From: a virus
Virus record (IMG/VR): IMGVR_UViG_3300020469_000290
Coordinates: 1-22,520 of that record
Direction: 5' to 3' (one strand)
Length of the DNA: 22,520 bases
The notes under the pieces were generated by a model. It had not been told where the DNA came from. It saw only the letters and a list, made by a program, of their open reading frames with translations, and made no database searches. Positions 10,888 through 22,520 of this stretch are shown one piece after another. The stretch's first letter is position 1, and each line of letters starts with the position of its first letter. The position numbers and the translations under genes were made by a program.

Positions 10888-12530
10888 TAGAAAGGTATCC
10901 CGTCAGATTCATCGTGAAACTCATCAGACTCGTCATCAAACCGTTCACTTAACCTACCAGTTTCGTTATCGTAAACTAAATGAGAAGCCATACCAACGTC
11001 ACCAGTGTACCGTGATTTTAATACTCTAAGATGTGTGGTGTTGGCCTCTTCAGGATCGTCACTCTGCTGGTTGCGCTCTAAGGCAATAACACAATCGCTT
11101 AGCTGTGCAATAGATTGACTGCCACGAAGATGTGATAGCCCTACTGTAACGCCCTGCTCGTGTCCCTTGTTACCCTCTACTCTGCGTAGATGAGATACAA
11201 GAATCATACCTGCCCCTGTCTCCTCCACCATAGATCTTAGGCGAGTCATAATACTATCTATTGATCTCCTCTCATCACCGTCAATCATAGAAGATACTAG
11301 CATATGTAAGTGATCCACAATTACCCACTTACAGTCGCAGCCGATTGTCAGATAGCGTATCTTAGAAAAGATTTCTTCTATGTCGTGCTGCCCTAAGTGT
11401 GAGTAGATCCACAGTCTATCTTTAGATTCACCTGCAAATAAACTATTGTAGTGCGCTCGCCATTCGTCTTCAGGGAACTCTTCTCTAATCTGATTAATAT
11501 ACAGTTTAGTATTGGCCTCAATAGAAACAACTCCGTCCACTGTACGGTTCTTGTTTTCTTCAAGAGCCAGAATACCTACACGATCTTTTGTATTCTTAAT
11601 CAGCCAGTGTTCAATTTCTCTAGTGATAGAAGACTTACCAAGGCCCGTGCCTCCAGTAAGAGTAACCAACTCACCCTGCCTCATACCATAAAGCTTTTTA
11701 TTTAAGCCCTGCCAAGGATAGGGTACAGAAGCTACTGTAGGTCTATTGAAATACTCATCGCCCATATCAGAAACATTAACGATGCCAGAAGGCGTGTAGC
11801 TTTTAGCTGCCCACCAAGCAGTGACATAGGCTTTCTGCCTACGCTGCTTGAGCATATCATTCGCATCTTTAAACTCCTCTGGAAGGAAAAGTATTTTAGC
11901 TTTGCCGGGACGCAATACTCTAGCGACCTGCCGAGCAGCATCCTTACCTACTTTATCATTATCAAAGTTGATGACTACACAATCAAAGGATTCTAAGAAC
12001 TCTAAGTTTTCTTTAACATCTTTGACTGCACCGCCAGCCCCGTTCTTTACTGACACTACAGGCCACTTAGAACCTAGCAGTTCGTATGCTGCCATAGCAT
12101 CACATTCGCCCTCAACTAGGGTAACAAATTTACCTCCTGATTGAAAAGCTTGCTGACCAAATAACATTACTCCTTTCGTAGATCCGCGCCATGAAAAGTC
12201 TTTATCTTTACAGTAACGAATCTTAGTAGATACCATCTCATTAGAGATATAGTAGGGGTAGTAATGAGTATTAGGACTAGACTTCACACCATACTTTTTA
12301 GCGGTATCTAAAGAAATACCCCTGTCATCTAGTGCTTGGAAAGTTCCTTCGTCATTACCCATATTAGCATTCCGCTGGTAGGTTTTAATATCGGGGATAG
12401 ATCCTCCTTTATCGTAGTCTCGTAAATAAGTATTACAACTAAAACAATATCCGTGACCGTCTTGATCAACAGATACTGGATCACTGCCACCACATTTATC
12501 ACAGGGCAAATGATACTTAACAAAGGCCAT
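10887..12530 (-). CDS. Bifunctional DNA primase-helicase, T7 gp4-like
   Basis: The 547-residue protein has an N-terminal zinc-binding domain (C10, C13, C29, C32), a Toprim primase core (E140 in LVEGECDAM; D190 and D192 in INFDND) and a RecA-fold hexameric helicase. The helicase has Walker A GGTGLGKSS at 293-301, catalytic E324 in LALEENK, and Walker B WVIVDH ending at H407. I chose ATG 12530, with GGAG six to seven bases upstream; the longer frame to 12617 has no ribosome site and runs into a terminator. The C-terminus is strongly acidic and ends DESDGIPF, like the tip of bacterial SSB. Confidence 0.96.
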   Translation of the reverse strand: MAFVKYHLPCDKCGGSDPVSVDQDGHGYCFSCNTYLRDYDKGGSIPDIKTYQRNANMGNDEGTFQALDDRGISLDTAKKYGVKSSPNTHYYPYYISNEMVSTKIRYCKDKDFSWRGSTKGVMLFGQQAFQSGGKFVTLVEGECDAMAAYELLGSKWPVVSVKNGAGGAVKDVKENLEFLESFDCVVINFDNDKVGKDAARQVARVLRPGKAKILFLPEEFKDANDMLKQRRQKAYVTAWWAAKSYTPSGIVNVSDMGDEYFNRPTVASVPYPWQGLNKKLYGMRQGELVTLTGGTGLGKSSITREIEHWLIKNTKDRVGILALEENKNRTVDGVVSIEANTKLYINQIREEFPEDEWRAHYNSLFAGESKDRLWIYSHLGQHDIEEIFSKIRYLTIGCDCKWVIVDHLHMLVSSMIDGDERRSIDSIMTRLRSMVEETGAGMILVSHLRRVEGNKGHEQGVTVGLSHLRGSQSIAQLSDCVIALERNQQSDDPEEANTTHLRVLKSRYTGDVGMASHLVYDNETGRLSERFDDESDEFHDESDGIPF

Positions 12531-12542
12531 ATAGTTCTCCAG

Positions 12543-12566
12543 AAAAAGGGGGCCATATAGACCCCC
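12543..12566 (-). terminator. Rho-independent terminator or attenuator before the primase-helicase
   Basis: Read leftward, GGGGGTC pairs with GGCCCCC around the loop TATAT (stem 12560-12566 with 12548-12554, one T-G pair), followed at once by TTTTT (12547-12543). It lies in the 43-base gap between the small gene ending at 12574 and the helicase start at 12530. It would limit helicase-polymerase transcription relative to the ssDNA-binding protein gene. Confidence 0.85.
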
Positions 12567-12573
12567 GTAAATT

Positions 12574-12813
12574 TTATTCTGTTTCTTCAGCCGCCTCCTC
12601 GTCGGCCAGCATATCATCTGTCAGTTGTTCAAGCACTACTGCATTGAAACCTCTAGCAGCCATTTCTAATTTAGCTAAGGTCTTCCTAGCTTGCTGTATT
12701 TCTTTATCTGTTTCTATAATTAAAACAAAAGCACTCTTACCTTCATCTGTAAACTTATCTACAGCGTAGGTTCCATCTTCAGAAGTGTATGTCCAGCTTT
12801 GCTGCTCACTCAT
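12574..12813 (-). CDS. Small acidic protein, possibly DUF6447-like
   Basis: The 79-residue protein starts MSEQQSWTYTSEDGTYAVDK, with a short strand region, then a long helix (residues 33-70) and an acidic tail (DMLADEEAAEETE). The order of a short 'xxYxxDxxTDEGK' strand and a helical QQARKTLAKLEMAARGFN hairpin resembles small phage proteins I associate with DUF6447; this is tentative. It follows the ssDNA-binding protein gene with a four-base overlap, so the two are coupled and transcribed from the promoter at 13267-13294. Function unknown. Confidence 0.72.
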   Translation of the reverse strand: MSEQQSWTYTSEDGTYAVDKFTDEGKSAFVLIIETDKEIQQARKTLAKLEMAARGFNAVVLEQLTDDMLADEEAAEETE

Positions 12814-13235
12814 AGTTCAGCTTCCTCCTCACCTTCAATTTCAAACTCATCGGCTTCGCCGTTGTCGTACTGCACAAGATCTAGGATTTGCATCTTAACA
12901 AAGTCCAGACCCTTAAAGGTCTTGCCATTCCAGACAGACTCCCATTCTTTGTACTGTACTTTAACGCGAGAACCGTTACCCACAGAAACATCAACAGTTT
13001 GCTTCATCCTGTCCATAAGAACAGGCGCTCTGCGAATCATACCATTAGGCCCATTTACCTTTCGTTTGATTATGATTGCGGGGCCTTCGTCCATCTGCTT
13101 CACCGTGAAACCACGATCTTCAAAGTCAGATGCAGTCTCATTGTCCACAACTAAATTGACTGAGTACACAGGGTCAAAGGTTGTGTTGGGTGTCGTAACA
13201 GCAGCCCAATAAGCTGTGCCTTCTAATACTGCCAT
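12810..13235 (-). CDS. Single-stranded DNA-binding protein, T7 gp2.5/DUF2815-like
   Basis: The product (141 residues) has the all-beta OB-fold pattern of phage ssDNA-binding proteins. An AYWAAVTTPNTTFDPVYSVN strand pair comes first, then KQMDEGPAIIIKRKV, then a VKVQYKEWESVWNGKTFKGL block rich in aromatics. The C-terminus is acidic (ADEFEIEGEEEAEL), as expected for a tail that contacts replication partners, but it lacks the terminal phenylalanine of T7 gp2.5. It is the first gene behind its own promoter and has GGAG eight bases before its ATG. It probably coats ssDNA for the polymerase and primase-helicase encoded downstream. Confidence 0.85.
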   Translation of the reverse strand: MAVLEGTAYWAAVTTPNTTFDPVYSVNLVVDNETASDFEDRGFTVKQMDEGPAIIIKRKVNGPNGMIRRAPVLMDRMKQTVDVSVGNGSRVKVQYKEWESVWNGKTFKGLDFVKMQILDLVQYDNGEADEFEIEGEEEAEL

Positions 13236-13266
13236 AAAAATATCTCCAATAAATTATCGTCAAACA

Positions 13267-13294
13267 AGTATACAGATTTAGGAATATCTGTCAA
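13267..13294 (-). promoter_or_regulatory. Sigma-70-type promoter for the ssDNA-binding protein gene
   Basis: Read leftward, TTGACA (13294-13289), a 16-base spacer and TATACT (13272-13267) form a near-consensus promoter. The predicted start is near 13260, 25 bases before the ATG at 13235. The TGA inside the -35 box is the stop codon of the gene ending at 13291. Confidence 0.85.
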
Positions 13295-13587
13295 GCGTAA
13301 TCGCTTTCCCAATTAGCTTTTCTTTTCTTCCTGCCCTCCGCACGGGCTTTTGCACTGGCCTCCTGTCGTGCAGCATACCAATAAGTAGACTTAAGTTCCT
13401 CCTTTAATTGTCTGATAGTTAAGGTTTTTTTCCTGCCTCCAGCAAGAGGTTTTAGTGTTGCTTTCTTGCTGCCTACAGTTATTTCACAGATTCTCCAGCC
13501 ATCTAGAAACATCCAAGTAACAAAGCAATCGCTACGTTTAGGGTTTAAAAATAAACCTTTCATCTTCAACATAGTTGTAATATTCAT
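13291..13587 (-). CDS. Hypothetical 98-residue basic protein
   Basis: The protein starts MNITTMLKMKGLFLNPKRSD, has a central strand-rich part (WRICEITVGSKKATLKPL) and a basic helical C-terminal half (QEASAKARAEGRKKRKANW). I do not recognise a family. It overlaps the preceding gene in TAATG at 13587. Its TGA stop forms part of the next promoter. The basic tail could bind nucleic acid; nothing more can be said. Confidence 0.68.
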   Translation of the reverse strand: MNITTMLKMKGLFLNPKRSDCFVTWMFLDGWRICEITVGSKKATLKPLAGGRKKTLTIRQLKEELKSTYWYAARQEASAKARAEGRKKRKANWESDYA

Positions 13588-13814
13588 TACCAGTTCGCCA
13601 GTTCGTCAAGATACTCTGAAAACAATGACGCTAGTACATCATCCTTTAATCTCCAATCACCCGCTTCGTGGCAACGATCTTGTACGAAAGCAAAGAATTT
13701 TTCTTTCACTCTTGGATTCACAGGCGGTGCAGTAGATATTCTTAACGCAAACAACTGGGCGTACCAATCATCTAAGTCAGACATAAACTCTGCTTGTGGA
13801 TCTATTGCACTCAT
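13587..13814 (-). CDS. Hypothetical 75-residue acidic protein
   Basis: This acidic, aromatic-rich protein begins MSAIDPQAEFMSDLDDWYAQ and ends in SEYLDELANW. It looks helical and soluble. There is no recognisable motif. It shares an A with the start of the next gene (TAATG) and overlaps the previous stop by four bases, so it belongs to the run of small coupled genes between the HTH gene and the ssDNA-binding protein gene. Confidence 0.66.
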   Translation of the reverse strand: MSAIDPQAEFMSDLDDWYAQLFALRISTAPPVNPRVKEKFFAFVQDRCHEAGDWRLKDDVLASLFSEYLDELANW

Positions 13815-13993
13815 ATCATCTCCTTTGCTATTGTATTTAAATAGTTTTCTATAAAATTAATTACAAAATCTTCGCCGTGTTCCAAGCATAATTGAAGTGC
13901 TTCATCACGAACTAGATCAGTACAATCAGTTTCACATAGATATACTTGTGAGTATTTTAGTATGTGATTAGACACATCAATTATATTTTTCAT
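13811..13993 (-). CDS. Hypothetical 60-residue acidic protein
   Basis: The protein starts MKNIIDVSNHILKYSQVYLC. It has three cysteines (residues 20, 24 and 36), an acidic middle (TDLVRDEALQ) and appears helical. It overlaps both neighbours by four bases. I do not recognise it, and no function can be assigned. Confidence 0.63.
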   Translation of the reverse strand: MKNIIDVSNHILKYSQVYLCETDCTDLVRDEALQLCLEHGEDFVINFIENYLNTIAKEMI

Positions 13994-14127
13994 CTAGCTT
14001 TAACTCCAAGTAGTCTTTTGTTGGCACACTTTCCACATAAAGTTTTGATCCAAAAATACACCATTTCTAAAGGCGGGGCAAGCTTCTTACACTCAGCGCA
14101 TCTAATTAAGTTTTCTCTATGCTCCAC
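13990..14127 (-). CDS. Small zinc-ribbon protein
   Basis: The product has two CxxC pairs, C10-C13 (CAECKK) and C31-C34 (CGKCAN), spaced 17 residues apart, the typical layout of a zinc ribbon. I chose GTG 14127, which has AAGGGAAG upstream and overlaps the HTH gene by 11 bases, giving 45 residues. An in-frame ATG at 14181 has no ribosome site and would overlap the HTH gene by 65 bases. Such small zinc proteins often bind nucleic acid or RNA polymerase; here the role is unknown. Confidence 0.65.
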   Translation of the reverse strand: MEHRENLIRCAECKKLAPPLEMVYFWIKTLCGKCANKRLLGVKAR

Positions 14128-14326
14128 GTAATGCTTCCCTTCTATATCTATAGGCTGTAGATAAAGCAATATTAACTTCATCTGCTATCTGGTTTGCACT
14201 CTTCCCTAACCGTGTTAATTTAAATATGTTTTGCTTTTGAACGTCAGTCAGCCCAGTATATTTTTCAGTCTTTTGATTACTAATGAAATCATCTTGAGCG
14301 CGGATAGCTTTGATAAACATTGTCAT
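14117..14326 (-). CDS. Small helix-turn-helix DNA-binding protein
   Basis: Residues about 26-66 of this 69-residue protein (LTDVQKQNIFKLTRLGKSAN, then QIADEVNIALSTAYRYRREA) form a homeodomain-like helix-turn-helix, with GKSANQIADEVNI as the first helix and turn, and STAYRYRRE as the recognition helix. It resembles the resolvase/HTH_23 type. A free-standing protein of this size could regulate transcription. The inverted repeat at 18221-18248 is a candidate target, but nothing in the sequence ties the two together. AGGA lies about nine bases before the ATG. Confidence 0.75.
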   Translation of the reverse strand: MTMFIKAIRAQDDFISNQKTEKYTGLTDVQKQNIFKLTRLGKSANQIADEVNIALSTAYRYRREALRGA

Positions 14327-14389
14327 TTCTAAATCCTAAAGTAATTTAAAGGTGAGCAGTTTATCCACTTACTCAGGTGGCAAGGGAAA

Positions 14390-15352
14390 CTATGCAGCTT
14401 TTGCGAAAGGGAAAGAACTAATTACTTTCTGTACCCGCTCAGACTTTTTAACTTGAGCAACTGGAAAGTCTACAGAGTTCTTACGGCTACCGCGATGGTG
14501 GCTAGACCAATCAGTCAATGTATTGTACAAAGCCCAATGGTTCTGGCCCATGTTGCGGCGGTAATGTGTTAAGTATTTATCCCACATATAAACTAAGCTG
14601 CTGTTGTTGTAGGCCGTAGGCATATTCATAATATCATATGCTCGCTCACCTTCAGCAACTTTACCTATTGCAAACTTAGAACCCGCAGCTTCTGCGATAT
14701 GAATAAAAGCATTTGTATCATCAAGCTCTTCATTCGCCCACTTAGCCCATATCTCATTCTGCTTATCCAGCATCCCGATAATACCGTTCAACTGTCTAGC
14801 GCCATGATCTACATTAAGTTTCTGAGTGTGTCGCGCTTTGTAGATTGTAGCAGCTCCAGTAATAAATACTTGGTGATTAGTACAAGCTGACTGATGCGCT
14901 CCAGCACTGGCTTGGTAGGGCCACACTGAGTTAAAAGAATTGATGTGTAGCATAGTCATTTGTGCCGTGTCACCATCGGGAGTTTGTATCTCATGGTTGG
15001 GCAGCAAGTGCCTAACAAAACATACTGAGCCGTTGTCGCCTACTTGAATGTTTTCTTTAATGCCATCAAGATTTAACTCACTACGCTCTAGTACATTGCG
15101 AGCGGTATCAATCATTTCTTTGTGGGATACAGGCTTGTATCGCTCACCGTGGATTGCTAAAGCATCCCCAGTATCTTCACGATAGTAAACTCTTTTATTA
15201 TTTAAAGAGTGGATACCCCCAAACTTGTCAGAGTTTTTAGCTTTATATAACACTGGCGAAGAAGCCACTTCAAAATCAGCACCGCCGTACCCGTCATTTC
15301 TTAGGGTGTCGAGGGCTGATCTGTTGCCGAACATTGATACTACTGTATTCAT
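14390..15352 (-). CDS. DUF932 family phage protein
   Basis: This 320-residue protein fits DUF932 (phage/plasmid-like protein family). Recognisable parts are an early YREDTGDALAIHGERYKPVS segment, a central block with INSFNSVWPYQASAGAHQSA followed by CTNHQVF, and a C-terminal NMGQNHWALYNTLTDWSSHH. Biochemistry is unknown; members occur in phages and plasmids near replication or recombination genes. It has its own promoter (15510-15538) and a structured leader, with GGAG five bases before the ATG, so it may be made in large amounts early. A 63-base gap without a clear terminator separates it from the HTH gene. Confidence 0.87.
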   Translation of the reverse strand: MNTVVSMFGNRSALDTLRNDGYGGADFEVASSPVLYKAKNSDKFGGIHSLNNKRVYYREDTGDALAIHGERYKPVSHKEMIDTARNVLERSELNLDGIKENIQVGDNGSVCFVRHLLPNHEIQTPDGDTAQMTMLHINSFNSVWPYQASAGAHQSACTNHQVFITGAATIYKARHTQKLNVDHGARQLNGIIGMLDKQNEIWAKWANEELDDTNAFIHIAEAAGSKFAIGKVAEGERAYDIMNMPTAYNNSSLVYMWDKYLTHYRRNMGQNHWALYNTLTDWSSHHRGSRKNSVDFPVAQVKKSERVQKVISSFPFAKAA

Positions 15353-15506
15353 ACGAACTCCACAGTTACAAAATAATAAGTTACCAACTTCTTACTGTCG
15401 CTCTTTAAGGTTCCCGAAGGAGGCGACGGGTCATGCTTCACGGTGCATCCAACCGACCTACCTGTTTTTAAGAAGGTCGTAAGACCTTCCTTCTTTAAAA
15501 CAGGTA
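15353..15506 (-). promoter_or_regulatory. Structured 5' leader of the DUF932 mRNA
   Basis: From a predicted start near 15503 the leader runs about 150 nt to the ATG at 15352. Read leftward it holds three elements. The first is the hairpin at 15459-15506. The second is a GGTC...GACC helix (15455-15458 with 15429-15432) that closes a GCAT/ATGC-type inner helix (15445-15448 with 15433-15436). The third is a GTCGC/GCGAC helix (15423-15427 with 15397-15401) enclosing TCC-TTCG-GGA (15412-15421), a UUCG tetraloop. No ORF or T-run is seen. A cis-acting RNA element is inferred. Confidence 0.6.
15459..15506 (-). repeat. Two-register hairpin at the 5' end of the DUF932 leader
   Basis: The outer arms TACCTGTTTT (15459-15468) and AAAACAGGTA (15497-15506) pair perfectly. 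Inside, AAGAAGG can pair with CCTTCTT (15470-15476 with 15489-15495), or GAAGGTC can pair with GACCTTC (15472-15478 with 15483-15489) around GTAA. These two options exclude each other. The core repeats at 17598-17648 with compensating changes. There is no following T-run on either strand, so it is not a simple terminator. Confidence 0.75.
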
Positions 15507-15509
15507 AGG

Positions 15510-15538
15510 ATTATAAAGTATTTTAGATACCTCGTCAA
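15510..15538 (-). promoter_or_regulatory. Sigma-70-type promoter for the DUF932 gene
   Basis: Read leftward, TTGACG (15538-15533), a 17-base spacer and a perfect TATAAT (15515-15510) are present. The predicted start is near 15503, within the first bases of the hairpin. The TGA of the -35 box is the stop codon of the GP88-type gene (15535-15537). Confidence 0.87.
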
Positions 15539-16344
15539 GCCGCTGCTCTAATTGTTATAGGATCTGCAAAGAAATTAAACTTACCAAGCTCACCTAATCT
15601 AGTTTTCTTTTGTGATCCTTTGCGCTTCAGCGATCCTACCGCACCGTCAGTATCTAAAAACCTTAAGTCGGTATCATCAAAGCTTGATAGTTTTATTTTA
15701 CTACCTCGCACAATTATACTATTCGGTATTGTAAACTCCCCTTTGGCCTCCTTAGTATTAAAAGATATAACTGTATTCAAGCCCAGCTTCACAGCCTTAA
15801 TAAAATTATTAATACACTTTGTATTGTTGAAGGATGCTGAGTAAGTTAAGTGATAGTTAGATAGTTTATTCTTTTTAACTCTGGTTAAGATCTTAGTGTA
15901 ATCATAAAACTGCACGTTAGGCAGCGACACAATCAAATCAGACCAATCCACATCACTAGTACCATTGAGACGAATGCAATAGTTATTTGTTTCGTTCTTA
16001 AGTATCTCAGTTCTAAGACGATCTTTAAAGCCATCGGGATCTTTAAGATATTGCACCGTCCTTCTAGTCATAGCTAACTGTGATTGATTCATTGCAAGCC
16101 GCCCAGAAGTTTTACCTAAACACTCATCTTCACACCCAGCAGTAGTAGCATAAGCACATAAAGTCTTAGTAGCTACAGCATTTGAGGGTTGCAAATACAA
16201 TATACCTGTGGTATAATCTTTTAATTTAAAGCCTTTTAAGACCTTAGTAGAGCTATTAAAACCTAACAAAGGATATTTATAATTATATATATAATCTTTG
16301 TAGGGCTTAATAGTCTTCAAAGCTGTTGAAGTTATTAGATCCAT
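15535..16344 (-). CDS. GP88 family phage protein
   Basis: This 269-residue protein fits the GP88 family (Pfam PF17338, from memory). A cysteine cluster (C63, C71, C75 in the TLCAYATTAGCEDECLGKTS region) is followed by GRLAMNQSQLAMTRR, then IRLNGTSDVDW (residues 124-134), QFYDYTK (145-151) and HLTYSASFN (165-173). The alternating strand motifs suggest a TIM-barrel-like fold, and the cysteines suggest a metal or Fe-S site, although the spacing CX7CX3C is not the standard radical-SAM CX3CX2C. Function is unknown. AGGAAG precedes the ATG. It is in the early part of the leftward unit and upstream of DUF932. Confidence 0.82.
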   Translation of the reverse strand: MDLITSTALKTIKPYKDYIYNYKYPLLGFNSSTKVLKGFKLKDYTTGILYLQPSNAVATKTLCAYATTAGCEDECLGKTSGRLAMNQSQLAMTRRTVQYLKDPDGFKDRLRTEILKNETNNYCIRLNGTSDVDWSDLIVSLPNVQFYDYTKILTRVKKNKLSNYHLTYSASFNNTKCINNFIKAVKLGLNTVISFNTKEAKGEFTIPNSIIVRGSKIKLSSFDDTDLRFLDTDGAVGSLKRKGSQKKTRLGELGKFNFFADPITIRAAA

Positions 16345-16351
16345 ATTCTTC

Positions 16352-16543
16352 CTACTTATTTACTTTCCTAAATTCTACCCTACGCTTAAGTTCTTCCTGA
16401 CATTTTGAAGCGGCTTCATTAAAGGTATAAGAAGAAGAACGATGGCAAAACTTAACTTTATTTGAGTATCTTAATCCCATTTCAGCGACTTGAGAGTCCG
16501 ACAAAGGCTCCAATATATCTTCAATTGACATTCTAGTAATCAT
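16352..16543 (-). CDS. Hypothetical 63-residue protein
   Basis: The protein starts MITRMSIEDILEPLSDSQVA and has a basic C-terminal half (CQEELKRRVEFRKVNK) with two cysteines (33 and 48). The ATG at 16543 has GGAG five bases upstream. I do not recognise a family. It lies between the small membrane protein gene and the GP88-type gene, with gaps of eight and seven bases. A host-takeover role is possible by position only. Confidence 0.67.
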   Translation of the reverse strand: MITRMSIEDILEPLSDSQVAEMGLRYSNKVKFCHRSSSYTFNEAASKCQEELKRRVEFRKVNK

Positions 16544-16551
16544 ACTTGCTC

Positions 16552-16770
16552 CTAAATTATTCTATCTTTCTTTAAACCATTGTAGACCATTGCTACAAAG
16601 CACCAACTAACTATTGCACCAAATAGTAGAAAACAAACTGCGAATACTAAAGTTAGACCCTCAAGAATAGTACCGCTCAACACCATAGATAGCAGTATAG
16701 CACCGCTATAAGTAGTAATTATAGCTGCTACTGCCATCCACGAAAGTAAAACAATTACGCCTAGAATCAT
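16552..16770 (-). CDS. Small membrane protein with two hydrophobic segments
   Basis: The 72-residue product is almost wholly hydrophobic, with segments at about 2-30 and 36-62, and ends with a positive cluster (LKKDR) that should stay in the cytoplasm. The two segments are joined by a short SGTILEG loop, giving an inner-membrane hairpin. The ribosome site AGGAG follows directly after the terminator T-run at 16782-16786. The size and topology fit a phage inner-membrane protein such as a holin-like or exclusion protein. Its early position argues against lysis. Not recognised. Confidence 0.72.
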   Translation of the reverse strand: MILGVIVLLSWMAVAAIITTYSGAILLSMVLSGTILEGLTLVFAVCFLLFGAIVSWCFVAMVYNGLKKDRII

Positions 16771-16781
16771 ACAATTCTCCT

Positions 16782-16800
16782 AAAAAGCCCCCGAAGGGGC
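16782..16800 (-). terminator. UUCG-loop rho-independent terminator
   Basis: Read leftward, GCCCC-TTCG-GGGGC (16800-16787) is followed by TTTTT (16786-16782). It sits just after the gene ending at 16808 and before the membrane protein gene. It should make transcription drop between early genes. Confidence 0.88.
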
Positions 16801-16807
16801 AGTTAAT

Positions 16808-17104
16808 TTATTTAGCAAGATCTTCCATACGATAAGAAATTGCATCGTCAATAGCTTCTAAGATTTTTCTAGTAACCCTAGATTCTACATGATTTATTTG
16901 TTCTTCTACTATAAACCTCATTGCAGCAGCATAATCTTTTCTATCAATTCTATTATCTAAATTATATCTTAAATCAGATACTGCCTTGGCAAACTCCTGC
17001 AAAGTTTGAGTGCTATAACCAACATCAAGATAATTACTATATTGTGTGCTATACTCACGCTTTTCCGAACGACTTAGTTGTTCACCGTCTTTATTAAAAA
17101 TCAT
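16808..17104 (-). CDS. Hypothetical 98-residue helical protein
   Basis: The protein starts MIFNKDGEQLSRSEKREYST and appears mainly helical, with alternating Lys/Arg and Glu/Asp (DLRYNLDNRIDRKDYAAAMR) and a C-terminal amphipathic helix. I do not recognise a family. It is the second gene of the leftward unit, flanked by terminators on both sides and possibly served by the promoter at 17132-17161. Such an arrangement is typical of early genes with individually set expression. Confidence 0.68.
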   Translation of the reverse strand: MIFNKDGEQLSRSEKREYSTQYSNYLDVGYSTQTLQEFAKAVSDLRYNLDNRIDRKDYAAAMRFIVEEQINHVESRVTRKILEAIDDAISYRMEDLAK

Positions 17105-17115
17105 ATTTATTACCT

Positions 17116-17156
17116 AAAAAATTACAAAGGGATTGTAAAGCCCCCGAAGGGGCTTT
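17116..17156 (-). terminator. Tandem hairpin terminator after the first leftward gene
   Basis: Read leftward, AAAGCCCC-TTCG-GGGGCTTT (17156-17137) is followed by a second hairpin, TTACAA-TCCCT-TTGTAA (17138-17122), and then six Ts (17121-17116). The two stems share bases 17137-17138. The first has a perfect 8-bp stem and a UUCG loop but only a short T-run; the second supplies the long T-run. Confidence 0.8.
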
Positions 17157-17161
17157 GTCAA
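17132..17161 (-). promoter_or_regulatory. Possible promoter with the terminator hairpin as its spacer
   Basis: Read leftward, TTGACA (17161-17156), an 18-base spacer and TACAAT (17137-17132) match sigma-70 elements. The spacer is almost exactly the UUCG hairpin. The predicted start near 17125 lies about 20 bases before the ATG at 17104. The 18-base spacing makes this less certain than the other promoters. Confidence 0.5.
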
Positions 17162-17163
17162 GT

Positions 17164-17538
17164 TTAGATCATGCCAAGGTCAGCAGCAGTAGCAATTCGT
17201 GGAGCCGAGGAAGTCTTAAAGTTCTTTGAGACTTTGCCTTTGGCAGTGATCGGAGCTTCTTGATTCGGCTTGAGATCCTCAGTTTTAAGTACCTTAAGGT
17301 ACTTAGCAGCAGCCGAGTTCTTCGCAGTAATCTTTTTGACATTGAACAGCTTGTTGATGTCACCAGCCAAAGGCTCACCGTCATGCACTGATTTAATTAC
17401 AGCACCGAATCGGGCCTTGAGTTTATTAAACTCAAATCGCTTCAGATCATTCTCACCGATAAACTTATACGCCAAGGTCGCAGCAACTGCATAGATTGCT
17501 TTGTTGGTAGCGGGACGAGTCATATCAAAATTAGCCAT
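17164..17538 (-). CDS. Hypothetical 124-residue protein, first gene of the leftward unit
   Basis: The protein starts MANFDMTRPATNKAIYAVAA. An Ala/Lys-rich helical first half is followed by a basic, low-complexity C-terminal region (PITAKGKVSKNFKTSSAPR) and a hydrophobic end (ADLGMI). I do not recognise a family. It is the first gene behind the strong leftward promoter at 18202-18230 and its 650-nt leader, and it is followed by a tandem terminator, so it should be abundant and early. By position it could be a host-takeover or DNA-binding factor. Confidence 0.75.
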   Translation of the reverse strand: MANFDMTRPATNKAIYAVAATLAYKFIGENDLKRFEFNKLKARFGAVIKSVHDGEPLAGDINKLFNVKKITAKNSAAAKYLKVLKTEDLKPNQEAPITAKGKVSKNFKTSSAPRIATAADLGMI

Positions 17539-17552
17539 ATTAGTTTCCTAAT
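17539..17552 (-). promoter_or_regulatory. Hairpin enclosing the ribosome site of the first leftward gene
   Basis: Read leftward, ATTAG-GAAA-CTAAT directly abuts the ATG at 17538. The ribosome site AGGA (17549-17546) spans the end of the stem and the GAAA loop, a GNRA tetraloop. It could tune initiation. Confidence 0.5.
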
Positions 17553-17597
17553 CGTATTTTTCGGTGCCAAGCAGCATCGGCTCGGCGGTTTCTAAAC

Positions 17598-17648
17598 CTC
17601 TATATTTTCTTAAGAGGTCGTAAGACCTCCTCTTAAGAAAATATAGAG
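17598..17648 (-). repeat. Two-register hairpin, sibling of the one at 15459-15506
   Basis: A perfect 20-bp stem (17598-17617 with 17629-17648) closes an 11-base loop. Alternatively GAGGTC pairs with GACCTC (17614-17619 with 17624-17629) around GTAA. The core differs from its sibling by matched changes (GAGG with CCTC here, GAAGG with CCTTC there). Confidence 0.75.
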
Positions 17649-17998
17649 TTTATTAAATCTATAAAACCTAAGAGGTTTTATAGATTTAAGAGGTTAAAAG
17701 ACCCTTTGGGTCTTTTAGATTGGGAAGTCTTTAGCTCTTCTTAGGAAGAGCTAGATTGGCTTTGAGGTCGGTGGGCTATTTAGTTTTCAACTTGTTGAAA
17801 ACTATGAAGATCTTCTAAGTAATACATTACTTAGAAGACTCTAAAGCCTTTCAGTTTACTTTGTAAACTAGAAAGGCTTGGGAAGTCTCAGCCCCTTAAA
17901 GTCTCTAGAGACTTTAAAGATCTATTTAGTTTCTAAATAGATTGGGTTCCAGACTATAAAGATTTTAGAGATCTTCTTAGAGTTTCTTAGAGCTTTAG

Positions 17999-18057
17999 AG
18001 GGGTGGGCAGGTGGCCGTGGGGGGTACTGTATATATATACTAAATCATATACATTTT
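17999..18057. other. G-rich block next to an AT-rich block (possible origin element)
   Basis: On the + strand a G-rich stretch at 17999-18025 (runs of four, three and six Gs) is followed directly by an AT-rich stretch at 18026-18057 that includes TATATATATAC. The pair stands out from the surrounding hairpins and lies in the main intergenic control region. An unwinding element or G-quadruplex is possible; no repeated initiator-binding sites prove an origin. Confidence 0.35.
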
Positions 18058-18082
18058 AGGAAGATTTTGGATGTAAACCAGC

Positions 18083-18150
18083 TTAGCCGGGTCTTTAAAG
18101 TCCTACTAACCTCCATATGAGCCAAAAGTAGTTTAGCCGGATCTTCAAAG
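18083..18150. repeat. Two 18-bp direct repeats exactly 50 bp apart
   Basis: TTAGCCGGGTCTTTAAAG (18083-18100) and TTAGCCGGATCTTCAAAG (18133-18150) agree at 16 of 18 positions and start 50 bp apart. They lie in the predicted leader, 45-112 bases after the leftward transcription start. They could be protein-binding sites on DNA or RNA. Confidence 0.75.
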
Positions 18151-18201
18151 ACTTTAAAGAGGCTACCTAGATATAGGTATAGCCCCGGTGGGTCTATGGA
18201 T

Positions 18202-18230
18202 ATTATAGAGTTCAATTTAACATTTGTCAA
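18202..18230 (-). promoter_or_regulatory. Main leftward promoter, perfect sigma-70 consensus
   Basis: Read leftward, TTGACA (18230-18225), 17 bases and TATAAT (18207-18202) match the consensus at every position. The predicted start is near 18195. It should drive the whole leftward unit, beginning with the hairpin-array leader. Confidence 0.9.
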
Positions 18231-18248
18231 GAAAAAACTTGACAAATG
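18221..18248. repeat. 11-bp inverted repeat at the centre of the divergent promoter
   Basis: CATTTGTCAAG (18221-18231) and CTTGACAAATG (18238-18248) are exact reverse complements around six As. Each arm contains one -35 box. The dyad is a natural operator position, since one bound protein dimer would cover both -35 elements. Confidence 0.85.
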
Positions 18249-18267
18249 TGTAAACCACTTCTATAAT
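18239..18267 (+). promoter_or_regulatory. Main rightward promoter, perfect sigma-70 consensus
   Basis: TTGACA (18239-18244), 17 bases and TATAAT (18262-18267) match the consensus at every position. The usual seven-base distance puts the start at about 18274, the A of the terminase small subunit ATG, so the mRNA would be leaderless. Confidence 0.9.
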
Positions 18268-18273
18268 AAAAGA

Positions 18274-18657
18274 ATGAAAAAAGAATTGACAACAAAACAA
18301 CAAACTTTTCTAGATCATTTAGTTGATACAGGAGGTGATCCTAAGCAAGCAGCCGAACTAGCTGGCTACGCTCCTAATACTCATTGGCAAGTAACTAAAG
18401 CTTTAAAGAATGAGATAGTGGACTTAGCATCTAGTATTTTGGCTCAGTCTGCACCTAAAGCTGCTATGAAGCTTGTGCATGTGATGGAGTCTGATCAGCC
18501 TATGCCTCAAGTCAATCAAAGACTTCAGGCCGCACAGACTATTTTAGATAGAGTGGGACTAGGCAAGGCAGACAAATTAGATGTCAGCCATAAAGTTGAA
18601 GGAGGGATTTTTGTGCTACCTGCTAAAGAAGAGGTAGTAATTAATGTTGAAGCGTAG
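18274..18657 (+). CDS. Terminase small subunit-like protein
   Basis: The 127-residue protein has an N-terminal helix-turn-helix at about 5-47 (LTTKQQTFLDHLVDTGGDPK, then QAAELAGYAPNTHWQVTKAL), a helical middle (LAQSAPKAAMKLVHVM...LQAAQTILDRVGLGKAD) and a short C-terminal strand region ending in VINVEA. This is the usual layout of phage terminase small subunits, which recognise packaging sites and feed DNA to the large subunit. The large subunit is encoded two genes downstream. The frame could extend to ATG 18196, but that would place the promoter inside the gene, so ATG 18274 is preferred. It has no upstream ribosome site. Confidence 0.82.
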   Translation: MKKELTTKQQTFLDHLVDTGGDPKQAAELAGYAPNTHWQVTKALKNEIVDLASSILAQSAPKAAMKLVHVMESDQPMPQVNQRLQAAQTILDRVGLGKADKLDVSHKVEGGIFVLPAKEEVVINVEA

Positions 18658-18868
18658 GACAAGTTCTACAATTCCTTTTGGTTATGTTCTTTCTGAAGAT
18701 CCTTTGTTTCTAGAAGAGGTTCCAGAACAAATAAAAGTCTTAGACGAAATTAAGCCACTAATAAAAGAAAGGGCCTTGAGTTTGCGCGAAGGCGCTACTT
18801 GGATAGAACATAAAACAGGGCGTAGATTAAGTCACGCAGGTTTAAAAAAGATTGTAGAAAATGGATGA
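18644..18868 (+). CDS. 74-residue HTH-like protein, possible detached terminase N-terminal module
   Basis: The protein contains TIPFGYVLSEDPLFLEEVPE, then a helical region with SLREGATWIEHKTGRRLSHA leading to GLKKIVENG. I recall the same 'IPFGY...SEDP...KTGR..SH.GLKK' segment from the N-terminus of terminase large subunits in some marine phages, where it looks like the helix-turn-helix linker of serine recombinases. Here it is a separate gene, out of frame with the terminase and overlapping it by eight bases. It also overlaps the small subunit gene by 14 bases. A DNA-binding packaging accessory role is inferred. Confidence 0.7.
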   Translation: MLKRRTSSTIPFGYVLSEDPLFLEEVPEQIKVLDEIKPLIKERALSLREGATWIEHKTGRRLSHAGLKKIVENG

Positions 18869-20546
18869 TTGGGAAATAAACCCAGATGCTTACCAAAAAG
18901 ACTCTGATGGGAATTTTGTTTTAAAGAAAGACGGAACTCCTAAAAAAAGATCTGGCAGGGCTAAAGGATCTAAATCAAGAGGATATAATTACCACTCTAC
19001 TACGAAAAAGAAAATAGAAGCTCGTAGAGCTGTTAGGTTAAAAGAAAAAAGACTAGAAAAAACACGTTCTAAACTTAACGCTTACAAAACTTCTTTATCT
19101 GCTTCTAAAGAAACTTTAGCCAAGCTAGATAATTCTGAATCATCTACTAAAGGTAAAATAATTACAGAAGATAATGTAGTTGCTTTACCTAAAAAACTTA
19201 AAGAAGAAGCATTAGAAAATGTAATCTTTAGGCCAAACGAAGGGCCGCAGACAGATTTCTTGGCGGCAGGTGAAACAGACGTATTGTACGGTGGCGCAGC
19301 AGGGGGTGGTAAGTCCTATGCTATGCTCGTAGATCCCCTGAGATTCGCTCATAGGGCTGCTCATAGGGCGTTAATACTAAGACGCTCCATGCCTGAACTC
19401 AGGGAGTTAATAGATAAGTCTAGGGAGTTATATCCAAAGGCTTTTCCGGGTTGTAAGTTCAGAGAAGTTGAAAAGATTTGGACATTCCCATCAGGGTCTA
19501 AACTAGAGTTTGGATACCTTGAGCGAGATGCAGATGTGTACAGATACCAAGGTCAAGCATACTCTTGGATCGGCTTTGATGAGATTACACATCTTAATAC
19601 AGAATTTTCTTGGAACTATTTAGCATCACGTTTACGAACAACTGATCCTGAAATAGAACCATATATGCGCTGCACGGCGAACCCCGGAGGGGTCGGCGCG
19701 ACTTGGGTAAAGAAGAGATATGTGCTACCCAATGAGCCTAATGAAAGTTTTACAGGTGCTGATGGGTTGACACGCAAGTTCATACCTGCTAGACTAGAAG
19801 ATAATCCGTATCTTGCTCAAGATGGAAGATACGAACAAATGTTAAAAGCGTTGCCAGATATACAACGAAAACAATTACTAGAAGGTAATTGGGATATAAC
19901 AGAAGGCGCTGCTTTTACAGAGTTTGATGTAGAAGTGCATGTTATTCCTCCTTTTGAAATCCCAATAGGATGGGAAAGAATAAAAGGTATTGACTATGGG
20001 TATGCTTCTGAAAGTGCTTGTATTTGGGGTTGTGTTGATCCTACTGATGGCACCCTTATAATTTATAGAGAGTTATATCGCAAAGGTCTAACAGGCGTAG
20101 ATTTAGCTCAACTTATAACTAACATGGAATTGCAAGATCCTTTTTCTGTACAAGGCGTATTAGATACAGCAGCATGGAATAGAACAGGAACTACAGGCCC
20201 TACAGTTGGAGAAACACTTCAACGAGGAGGGCATAAGTTGCGAAGAGCAGACAAGAATAGAATTCAGGGTAAGATTCAAATACATGAATACTTACGAGTA
20301 CAACCAAGTGGCAGACCAAAGATACAAATATTTAGTAACTGTCCTAACTTGATACGTGAACTACAGAGTATACCATTAGATAAATCTAATCCTGAAGATG
20401 TTGATACACATGCACCTGATCACGCTTACGATGCGTTAAGGTACTTAATTATGTCAAGACCTAAAGTCAATGACATTTTTAATCAATTTAGACACATGAG
20501 AATGGAACAGGCTTACACGCCCGTAGATTCAGAATTTGGATATTAA
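18861..20546 (+). CDS. Terminase large subunit (packaging ATPase and nuclease)
   Basis: The protein (561 residues) has a basic, coiled-coil-like N-terminal region (about 25-120, rich in Lys/Arg/Glu). The ATPase domain follows, with Walker A GGAAGGGKS at 144-152 and Walker B WIGFDE (D240, E241). The C-terminal RNase H-like nuclease has D378 (KGIDYGYA), D435 (GVLDTAAW) and D520/D524 (APDHAYDALRY). It translocates and cuts DNA at the portal. The length is somewhat above typical because of the N-terminal extension. The start overlaps the preceding gene. The domain order and motifs are complete, so the enzyme is probably active. Confidence 0.96.
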   Translation: MDDWEINPDAYQKDSDGNFVLKKDGTPKKRSGRAKGSKSRGYNYHSTTKKKIEARRAVRLKEKRLEKTRSKLNAYKTSLSASKETLAKLDNSESSTKGKIITEDNVVALPKKLKEEALENVIFRPNEGPQTDFLAAGETDVLYGGAAGGGKSYAMLVDPLRFAHRAAHRALILRRSMPELRELIDKSRELYPKAFPGCKFREVEKIWTFPSGSKLEFGYLERDADVYRYQGQAYSWIGFDEITHLNTEFSWNYLASRLRTTDPEIEPYMRCTANPGGVGATWVKKRYVLPNEPNESFTGADGLTRKFIPARLEDNPYLAQDGRYEQMLKALPDIQRKQLLEGNWDITEGAAFTEFDVEVHVIPPFEIPIGWERIKGIDYGYASESACIWGCVDPTDGTLIIYRELYRKGLTGVDLAQLITNMELQDPFSVQGVLDTAAWNRTGTTGPTVGETLQRGGHKLRRADKNRIQGKIQIHEYLRVQPSGRPKIQIFSNCPNLIRELQSIPLDKSNPEDVDTHAPDHAYDALRYLIMSRPKVNDIFNQFRHMRMEQAYTPVDSEFGY

Positions 20547-20558
20547 AGGAGAACATAA

Positions 20559-21128
20559 ATGTCAAATCCAGTTGTAAAAATTAGAGATACAGGACGTAAC
20601 TCTTCACGTACAGGAGATGTACGAGAACTTGCTGATAATGTAATTACTTCAGCTACATCAACTACTACAGGTACGATTGCTGTAACTGCTGCTGCTACTT
20701 ACGACGTTAGCTTTACTCAACCTGCTGACACTTCAATTAAAAATCTTATTATGATTGCTAATGGTAACTTGGTTACTGCTGGTGCATCAGGTGATGATAT
20801 TGATTTTGATTTAGGAACAGCAGCAGGTGGTGGACAGATTATTAATGAAAAAGCGATTGCAGACGATGGTGGGAGTGCTGTTACTATTACAGCTAACACC
20901 CCTCTTTATATTATTGCTAATGGTGTACCAGCCGCAGCTAATGCTTTTTCTACGATGAGCGGTGGCCCAGCTACTTCAGAAGCTATGACGCTTTCAGCAT
21001 CATTGTATAGTTCTGCTGCACGTACATTGCACATACGCTTAAAGCCTCTTGCAAATGACTTGGCTACAGCAGCAACTACGGCTACGTTTATTATTGAGTT
21101 TCAGCATCTTGGCGTAACTCCTAGCTAA
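20559..21128 (+). CDS. Ser/Thr/Ala-rich probable virion protein
   Basis: The 189-residue protein has a charged start (MSNPVVKIRDTGRNSSRTGD) followed by a long strand-rich, Ala/Thr/Gly-rich body (ATSTTTGTIAVTAAATYDVS), with no cysteine and few charges. That composition is typical of beta-rich capsid decoration or head-fibre proteins. It lies between terminase and portal and has a strong AAGGAG ribosome site, which suggests high expression. I do not recognise a specific family. The alternative is a tail or adhesin-like protein, but the location favours the head. Confidence 0.7.
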   Translation: MSNPVVKIRDTGRNSSRTGDVRELADNVITSATSTTTGTIAVTAAATYDVSFTQPADTSIKNLIMIANGNLVTAGASGDDIDFDLGTAAGGGQIINEKAIADDGGSAVTITANTPLYIIANGVPAAANAFSTMSGGPATSEAMTLSASLYSSAARTLHIRLKPLANDLATAATTATFIIEFQHLGVTPS

Positions 21129-21130
21129 AC

Positions 21131-22520
21131 ATGGCTGAAACTAACTTAACATCTAACGAACTCTACTTTCAACAAGAAGAGGACGAGCAAGGAATAAACC
21201 TTACTCTTGAAGAAAACCTACAAAACAATCTTGTAGGTTTAATTCAAGATAGGTTCCTTTCTGCTGAAAACGCAAGAGACTTAGACGAGTCACGTTGGCT
21301 TACAGCCTACCATAACTATCGTGGATTATATGGCAAGAATGTAAGATTCCGTGAGTCTGAAAAGTCTAGAGTATTTGTAAAAATTACAAAAACTAAAGTA
21401 CTTGCTGCTTATGGTCAGCTTGTAGATGTTATATTTGGAGCTAATAAGTTTCCTATTGGTATCAGTGAAACTAAAGTACCTGAAGGTATTGCAGAACATG
21501 CACATTTAGATACACAGACTCCAGTACCGGGAATTGAAACTTCTATAGAAAATTCTGTAGAAGAAGTAGAGAATCCTTATGACGTAGGTTACGAAGGCGA
21601 TGGGCGTACACTCAAAGCTGGAGCAACCTATGGCACAGGGAAATTTGAACAACAAAGAGTAGAAGAACTAGCAGAAGACAATCTTAAAGAAGGTCTATCT
21701 CCTATTCCAGAAGCACTTGAAATTAGTCCAGCACAAAAGGCTGCTAGACGAATGGAAAAGCTTATACACGATCAGATTGAAGAATCTAATGGTGCTAGTG
21801 AAATAAGAAACTCTTTGTTTGAATCAGCGTTGTTTGGGACAGGTATTGTAAAAGGCCCATTCAACTTTAACAAAACTCTTAATCGTTGGAATACTGAGGA
21901 CGGAGAAAGGTCTTATAGCCCTGTATCTGTTAGAGTACCACGCATAGAGTTTGTAAGTATATGGGATTTCTTTCCTGATCCTAATGCAACGACAATGGCA
22001 GAGTGCGAGTACGTGTTTCATAGACATCGTATGAATCGTACTCAACTCAGAGGTCTTAGCAAACTACCATACTTCGACAAAGATGCGGTACGTGAATGTT
22101 TGCAAATGGGGCCTAACTATATTGAAAAAGATTACGAACAAGAATTAAAAGATGACAGCCGTAGCGATGACTATGGCGCGAGTCAGTTTGAAGTCTTAGA
22201 ATATTGGGGTGTCATGGATGCAGAGTATGCTCGTCAAGTCGGTATGGAAGTTGACGAAGGAGTAGATGATCTAGATGAAATCCAAATTAACGCATGGATT
22301 TGCAATGGTAAGATGCTTAGGGCAGTGGTTAACCCCTTCACGCCGTTTAGAGTTCCTTACCATGCTTTCACTTATGAGCGTAATCCCTATAGCTTTTTTG
22401 GGATTGGCGTAGCGGAAAATATGGACGATTCACAAAAGATTATGAACGGTCATGCTCGTATGGCTATTGATAATCTTGCACTGTCAGGCTCATTAGTATT
22501 TGATGTGGATGAGACTGCCC
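21131..22520 (+). CDS. Portal protein (partial, cut by the window end)
   Basis: The frame is open from ATG 21131 to the right edge (463 codons). It starts MAETNLTSNELYFQQEEDEQ. Recognisable portal features are the SIWDFFPDPNATTMAECEYV block (residues about 276-295), EYWGVMDAEYA and, near the edge, YERNPYSFFGIGVAENMDDS, followed by a helical QKIMNGHARMAIDN segment. These match the portal (head-tail connector) of podovirus-like marine phages. An acidic region at about 119-165 may be a surface insertion. The protein forms the ring through which terminase pumps DNA. The start is two bases after the preceding stop. Confidence 0.88.
   Translation, partial: MAETNLTSNELYFQQEEDEQGINLTLEENLQNNLVGLIQDRFLSAENARDLDESRWLTAYHNYRGLYGKNVRFRESEKSRVFVKITKTKVLAAYGQLVDVIFGANKFPIGISETKVPEGIAEHAHLDTQTPVPGIETSIENSVEEVENPYDVGYEGDGRTLKAGATYGTGKFEQQRVEELAEDNLKEGLSPIPEALEISPAQKAARRMEKLIHDQIEESNGASEIRNSLFESALFGTGIVKGPFNFNKTLNRWNTEDGERSYSPVSVRVPRIEFVSIWDFFPDPNATTMAECEYVFHRHRMNRTQLRGLSKLPYFDKDAVRECLQMGPNYIEKDYEQELKDDSRSDDYGASQFEVLEYWGVMDAEYARQVGMEVDEGVDDLDEIQINAWICNGKMLRAVVNPFTPFRVPYHAFTYERNPYSFFGIGVAENMDDSQKIMNGHARMAIDNLALSGSLVFDVDETA

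Follow-up and report, generated by a model that had tools for sequence, protein, structure and literature searches.

A conserved divergent pair of consensus sigma-70 promoters as a probable control hub between two gene blocks of an HMO-2011-type marine phage

Why do two perfect sigma-70 promoters stand back to back, in mirror image, between two gene blocks of a marine phage? The 22,520-nt stretch of viral DNA analysed here (the window) carries such a pair, which an earlier note had read as a possible switch between replication and virion genes. In a consensus match scan, the leftward and the rightward promoter both scored 12/12 to TTGACA-N17-TATAAT with 17-bp spacers, mirror-imaged about the common centre 18234.5 as the note had described, and within 12000-22520 these two are the only 12/12 sites.

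18202..18230, (-) strand: leftward promoter; -35 TTGACA 18225-18230, 17-bp spacer, -10 TATAAT 18202-18207; 12/12; kept in relatives
18239..18267, (+) strand: rightward promoter; -35 TTGACA 18239-18244, 17-bp spacer, -10 TATAAT 18262-18267; 12/12; kept in relatives
18220..18249, no strand: inverted repeat; perfect 12-bp arms 18220-18231 / 18238-18249, AAAAAA centre, contains both -35 boxes; inter-arm distance differs in relatives

The -35 boxes are indeed 8 bp apart (18231-18238), the -10 boxes are 54 bp apart, and 79 bp lie between the predicted starts (~18195 leftward, ~18274 rightward). An 11-bp inverted repeat had been described around the -35 boxes; the repeat is there, with arms of 12 bp each, and it extends to 31 nt at 77% once mismatches are allowed. 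The claimed agreement of the two 17-base spacers at 10/17 positions was reproduced. By chance, a dinucleotide-shuffled window is expected to hold 0.017 exact promoters, and for an exact mirrored pair at any gap from 0 to 40 the expectation is ~6e-8 per window.

The window is identified as a fragment of an HMO-2011-type phage by its TerL, DNA polymerase and portal relatives, whose module order agrees with that of the group. Its TerL is 65-68% identical to those of the Pelagibacter phages HTVC115P, HTVC103P and HTVC104P and 44-49% identical to those of HMO-2011 and CRP phages and several roseophages; against HTVC115P, identity is 46% for the DNA polymerase and 58% for the gene occupying the portal position. 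HMO-2011-type phages form a marine virus group that is both dominant and widely distributed, and the window resembles them in its terminase, portal and DNA polymerase and in how the modules are laid out; promoters are not mentioned in the main text of the paper describing the group (PMC9038755). The two gene blocks between which the pair had been placed were correctly recognised, since the leftward genes include DNA polymerase A and relatives of the HTVC115P primase, single-strand binding protein and ribonucleotide reductase, and the rightward genes are TerS, TerL and the gene occupying the portal position. The genes nearest to the pair are:

18274..18657, (+) strand: terminase small subunit (TerS); first rightward gene, conserved; PHROG 2538 E 1.2e-6; Pfam Terminase_2 E 1e-4, under its cutoff
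17164..17538, (-) strand: first leftward gene; 124 aa; no family match; conserved in the close clade only

Two details were seen around the first leftward gene. A possible ribosome-binding AGGA at 17538-17560 lies within a small hairpin, TTAG-GAAA-CTAA, that ends at the ATG, and a leftward promoter at 17128-17161 (TTGACA-18-TACAAT) holds a terminator-like GCCCC...GGGGC hairpin in its spacer.

Is the pair a peculiarity of this window? Relatives were collected via TerS and are mutually non-independent; from 66 IMG/VR loci with a TerS relative, together with the window and three cultured phages, 52 distinct upstream regions were compared. Both promoters score at least 11/12 in 48 of the 52 regions, 46 of which have 17-bp spacers on both sides and two (HTVC115P and HTVC103P) a 16-bp leftward spacer. 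Under the script rule, the remaining four (L061, L063, L064 and HTVC033P) are without the pair, although in HTVC033P a divergent pair missed by the script is visible by eye. The L061-L064 lineage keeps TerS (63-64%) with no recognisable promoter pair upstream. Across the 52 regions the -35 gap ranges from 7 to 30 bp: 25 have a gap of 8, two a gap of 7, and most of the rest one of 11 to 30. Because this gap varies while both promoters are kept, conservation applies to the pair of promoters rather than to the dyad; of the features whose retention in related phages the note had proposed to check, the promoters stood and the fixed dyad did not. Among the matches listed by an exact-pair pattern scan of viral sequences, 37 distinct pairs directly precede a TerS relative and one further pair is non-adjacent; again among the matches listed, 44 of 120 loci carried TerS or TerL relatives. 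A scan of bacterial genomes with a gap of 6 bp, not the window's 8, returned 30 perfect mirrored pairs (L199-L228), mostly in Clostridia and their relatives.

We consider it likely that the locus is a conserved divergent hub of host sigma-70 promoters, separating an early/replication block on the left from a packaging/structure block on the right. Host RNA polymerase would read both promoters. The ATG of TerS lies 6 nt beyond the rightward -10 box and its A coincides with the predicted start at 18274; given that start, the TerS mRNA would be leaderless in this lineage. Leaderless TerS was rejected as a universal trait: the ATG stands 6-12 nt past the -10 box in 49/52 of the first set and 5-12 nt past it in just 11/37 of the wider set, among the matches listed.

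The earlier note had gone further, proposing that one dimeric repressor on the dyad blocks both promoters and that the polymerases exclude each other, which would make a single operator the switch between replication and virion genes. The perfect 12-bp arms spanning both -35 boxes and the 79 bp between starts are consistent with this, as are a gap of 7-8 bp in 27/52 regions and the arm extensions AATGT/AATCT, which tend to co-vary on both sides in the close clade. However, both promoters are kept at gaps from 7 to 30 bp, which speaks against one dimer acting on both. Steric exclusion is possible at 79 bp start to start, but since wider -35 gaps are common it is not a general requirement. The suggested repressor, the HTH protein encoded at 14117-14326, fared no better: among the loci fetched by then, only L007 has it (44%), and L008 and L013 cover its position without encoding it. 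Absent from most relatives, it was discarded as a general regulator, and its absence leaves the one-dimer reading unsupported. The arm core CTTGACAAA also recurs at 17161, in a leftward promoter that stands alone; it may therefore be an extended -35, and an extended promoter motif fits it better than a repressor half-site. A single dyad operator is thus quite improbable in our estimate, and the mirror layout is probably not the operator of a single dimer.

What, then, accounts for the symmetry? Within-phage mirror agreement of the spacers averages 9.75/17 compared with 8.0 when spacers are shuffled between phages (16 representatives; p = 5e-5). The effect was found for -35 gaps of at most 8 bp (10.7 vs 8.7 shuffled, p = 5e-5) and was smaller at wider gaps (8.6 vs 7.7 shuffled, p = 0.08). 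The resemblance could stem from local composition common to both spacers, from template switching between close arms or from a remnant of dyad function, and an inverted duplication may lie at the origin of the promoter mirror. We favour template switching as the source of the resemblance, as the adjacent hairpins bear its marks, namely near-perfect stems and flipped loops. The exact mirror layout is particular to the lineage and was probably maintained or improved by template switches during replication, from one of the nearby inverted arms to the other.

The 657 untranslated bases that the leftward promoter faces before the first leftward gene hold a hairpin array and, at the predicted start, a short hairpin of a different kind:

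18179..18197, (-) strand: hairpin AUAGACCC-ACC-GGGGCUAU; located where the leftward transcript is predicted to begin
17595..17980, (-) strand: hairpin array; stems of ~10-23 bp; within the untranslated leader (657 nt)

The 5' hairpin beats shuffles in 13 of 18 distinct versions, shows compensatory stem changes in distant relatives and frequently has an ACCG-type loop; it is absent from HTVC115P and HTVC103P. With its compensatory changes, it marks the predicted leftward start independently. The leftward RNA would accordingly begin with a protective 5' hairpin, followed by a long untranslated leader. That leader folds with a z of -14.9 against shuffles, its array folding alike in 18 close-clade sequences and being weaker or gone in many distant ones. 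Of 19 strong hairpins in the window as a whole, seven fall in 17540-18200; the array shows compensatory changes in close relatives and no G-U bias. Were the array selected as RNA, G-U should outnumber A-C where bases pair; in 70 distinct hairpins we counted 7 G-U and 14 A-C among 988 paired positions, of which 935 were Watson-Crick. A structured RNA selected in the leftward transcript was rejected, the wobble excess being absent on that strand, and we describe the array as palindromic DNA that would also fold as RNA. Leftward-favouring z-scores (20/25 loci) were likewise dismissed as strand evidence, because perfect palindromes add approximately equal energy to both strands and the baselines differ. 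No Rfam match in the leader reached the gathering score; all were sub-threshold.

Several loops of the array are flipped, for example CTAAGAAG to CTTCTTAG, on near-perfect stems. In leader alignment A1, loops are reverse-complemented between close relatives (L009 vs L011, L017 vs L018), with GTCTAAGAAGAC and GTCTTCTTAGAC. Such loop flips are a mark of template switching, and near-perfect stems with flipped loops have been described as its signature (PMC8794818). The sequence GGTCGTAAGACC tips two long hairpins, 17616-17627 and 15475-15486, in the leaders of different leftward genes; the tip GTCGTAAGAC of the 17616 copy is invariant across the leader alignment.

How might the hub be controlled? 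The region contains oriented copies of a GTNAACYAG box:

18250..18258, (+) strand: box 1 GTAAACCAC; within the rightward spacer; one mismatch to GTNAACYAG; in part of the relatives only
18073..18081, (+) strand: box 2 GTAAACCAG; most widely kept copy
17863..17871, (+) strand: box 3 GTAAACTAG; inside a hairpin
18005..18110, (+) strand: conserved core; G-rich stretch, TATATATACTAA, CATATACATTTT, box 2 and CGGGTCTTTAAAGTC iteron end; order similar in most listed relatives

All three boxes point rightward. Measured from TerS, they lie at about -24 (the copy with one mismatch), -201 and -411 in the window and at -27, -204 and -411 in HTVC115P. The 22.5-kb window has two exact boxes, both in the promoter region; HTVC115P has five, of which the three in the promoter region are identical (GTTAACTAG). 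That the box is largely confined to the region is indicated by a density at one mismatch of 4.37 vs 0.41 per kb, and three copies within 400 bp arose in 0/300 shuffles. The spacing of 177 bp between boxes 1 and 2, equal in the window and HTVC115P, was set aside as coincidence, as it differs elsewhere. In the wider TerS-linked set, box 1 occurs in 5/37 and an exact distal copy in 19/37, among the matches listed. Candidate control of the rightward promoter through the box is hence not universal, given the 5/37 for box 1 among those matches. Where box 1 is present, its position in the rightward spacer means that a protein bound there would hinder polymerase. The binder may be TerS, an initiator or a late-gene regulator.

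If the oriented boxes that precede terS were bound by TerS itself, the region would be a pac/cos-like packaging start and box 1 would confer autoregulation. Oriented boxes do lie within ~400 bp upstream of terS, even where TerS is only ~54% identical, and TerS is among the few likely sequence-specific DNA binders common to all compared phages. Yet L061, whose TerS is 64% identical to that of the window, has no exact box over the 12 kb scanned, and exact boxes are missing in many other relatives. A packaging start is accordingly an unlikely reading. We are equally doubtful of a replication origin, in which A+T-rich TATATATACTAA/CATATACATTTT stands beside the G-rich stretch and repeated boxes and the promoters supply transcripts, even though the element order is similar in most relatives and the hairpin array is close by. 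Strand skew as evidence on this point would be confounded by gene direction. The core at 18005-18110 could be an origin.

As for the divergent sigma-70 hub itself, it is probably controlled through the GTNAACYAG box. A phage protein on the box, which in this lineage overlaps the rightward spacer, would delay or tune late transcription and might link the box copies. A wider synthesis is offered tentatively and seems rather unlikely to us: a candidate box-binding phage protein would tie the regulation of the late promoter to replication or packaging, while template switching re-perfects the mirror pair and the palindromes. As part of that same doubtful synthesis, such an integrated control element would be a novelty among these dominant marine phages. 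In HTVC115P, a cultured system, the conserved pair and the repeated box are sites open to test, and the near-perfect, loop-flipping hairpins provide a natural case of template switching making palindromes.

Among known systems, lambda PR/PRM consists of back-to-back sigma-70 promoters, ~80 bp start to start, that separate gene programmes, and the predicted 79 bp of the phage pair matches this distance. In contrast to lambda, both promoters here are perfect consensus and their spacing is not fixed among relatives; a repressor gene controlled by the pair and a conserved operator geometry were not found in the relatives compared, the HTH candidate being unconserved and the gap ranging over 7-30 bp. 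The bidirectional promoters of Warman and Grainger have opposite-strand starts flanking or within one shared -10 (PMC12825309). Symmetry and divergent transcription are common to both cases, whereas the phage has two complete promoters side by side, whose -10 boxes (18202-18207 and 18262-18267) are separate, 54 bp from each other, and not a shared element. In pLS20, Pc and Pr overlap, with a known regulator and evidence for looping (PMC4207663), while the phage promoters do not overlap; what the two systems have in common is a divergent promoter pair with repeated motifs at a distance, and in pLS20 these motifs are operators.
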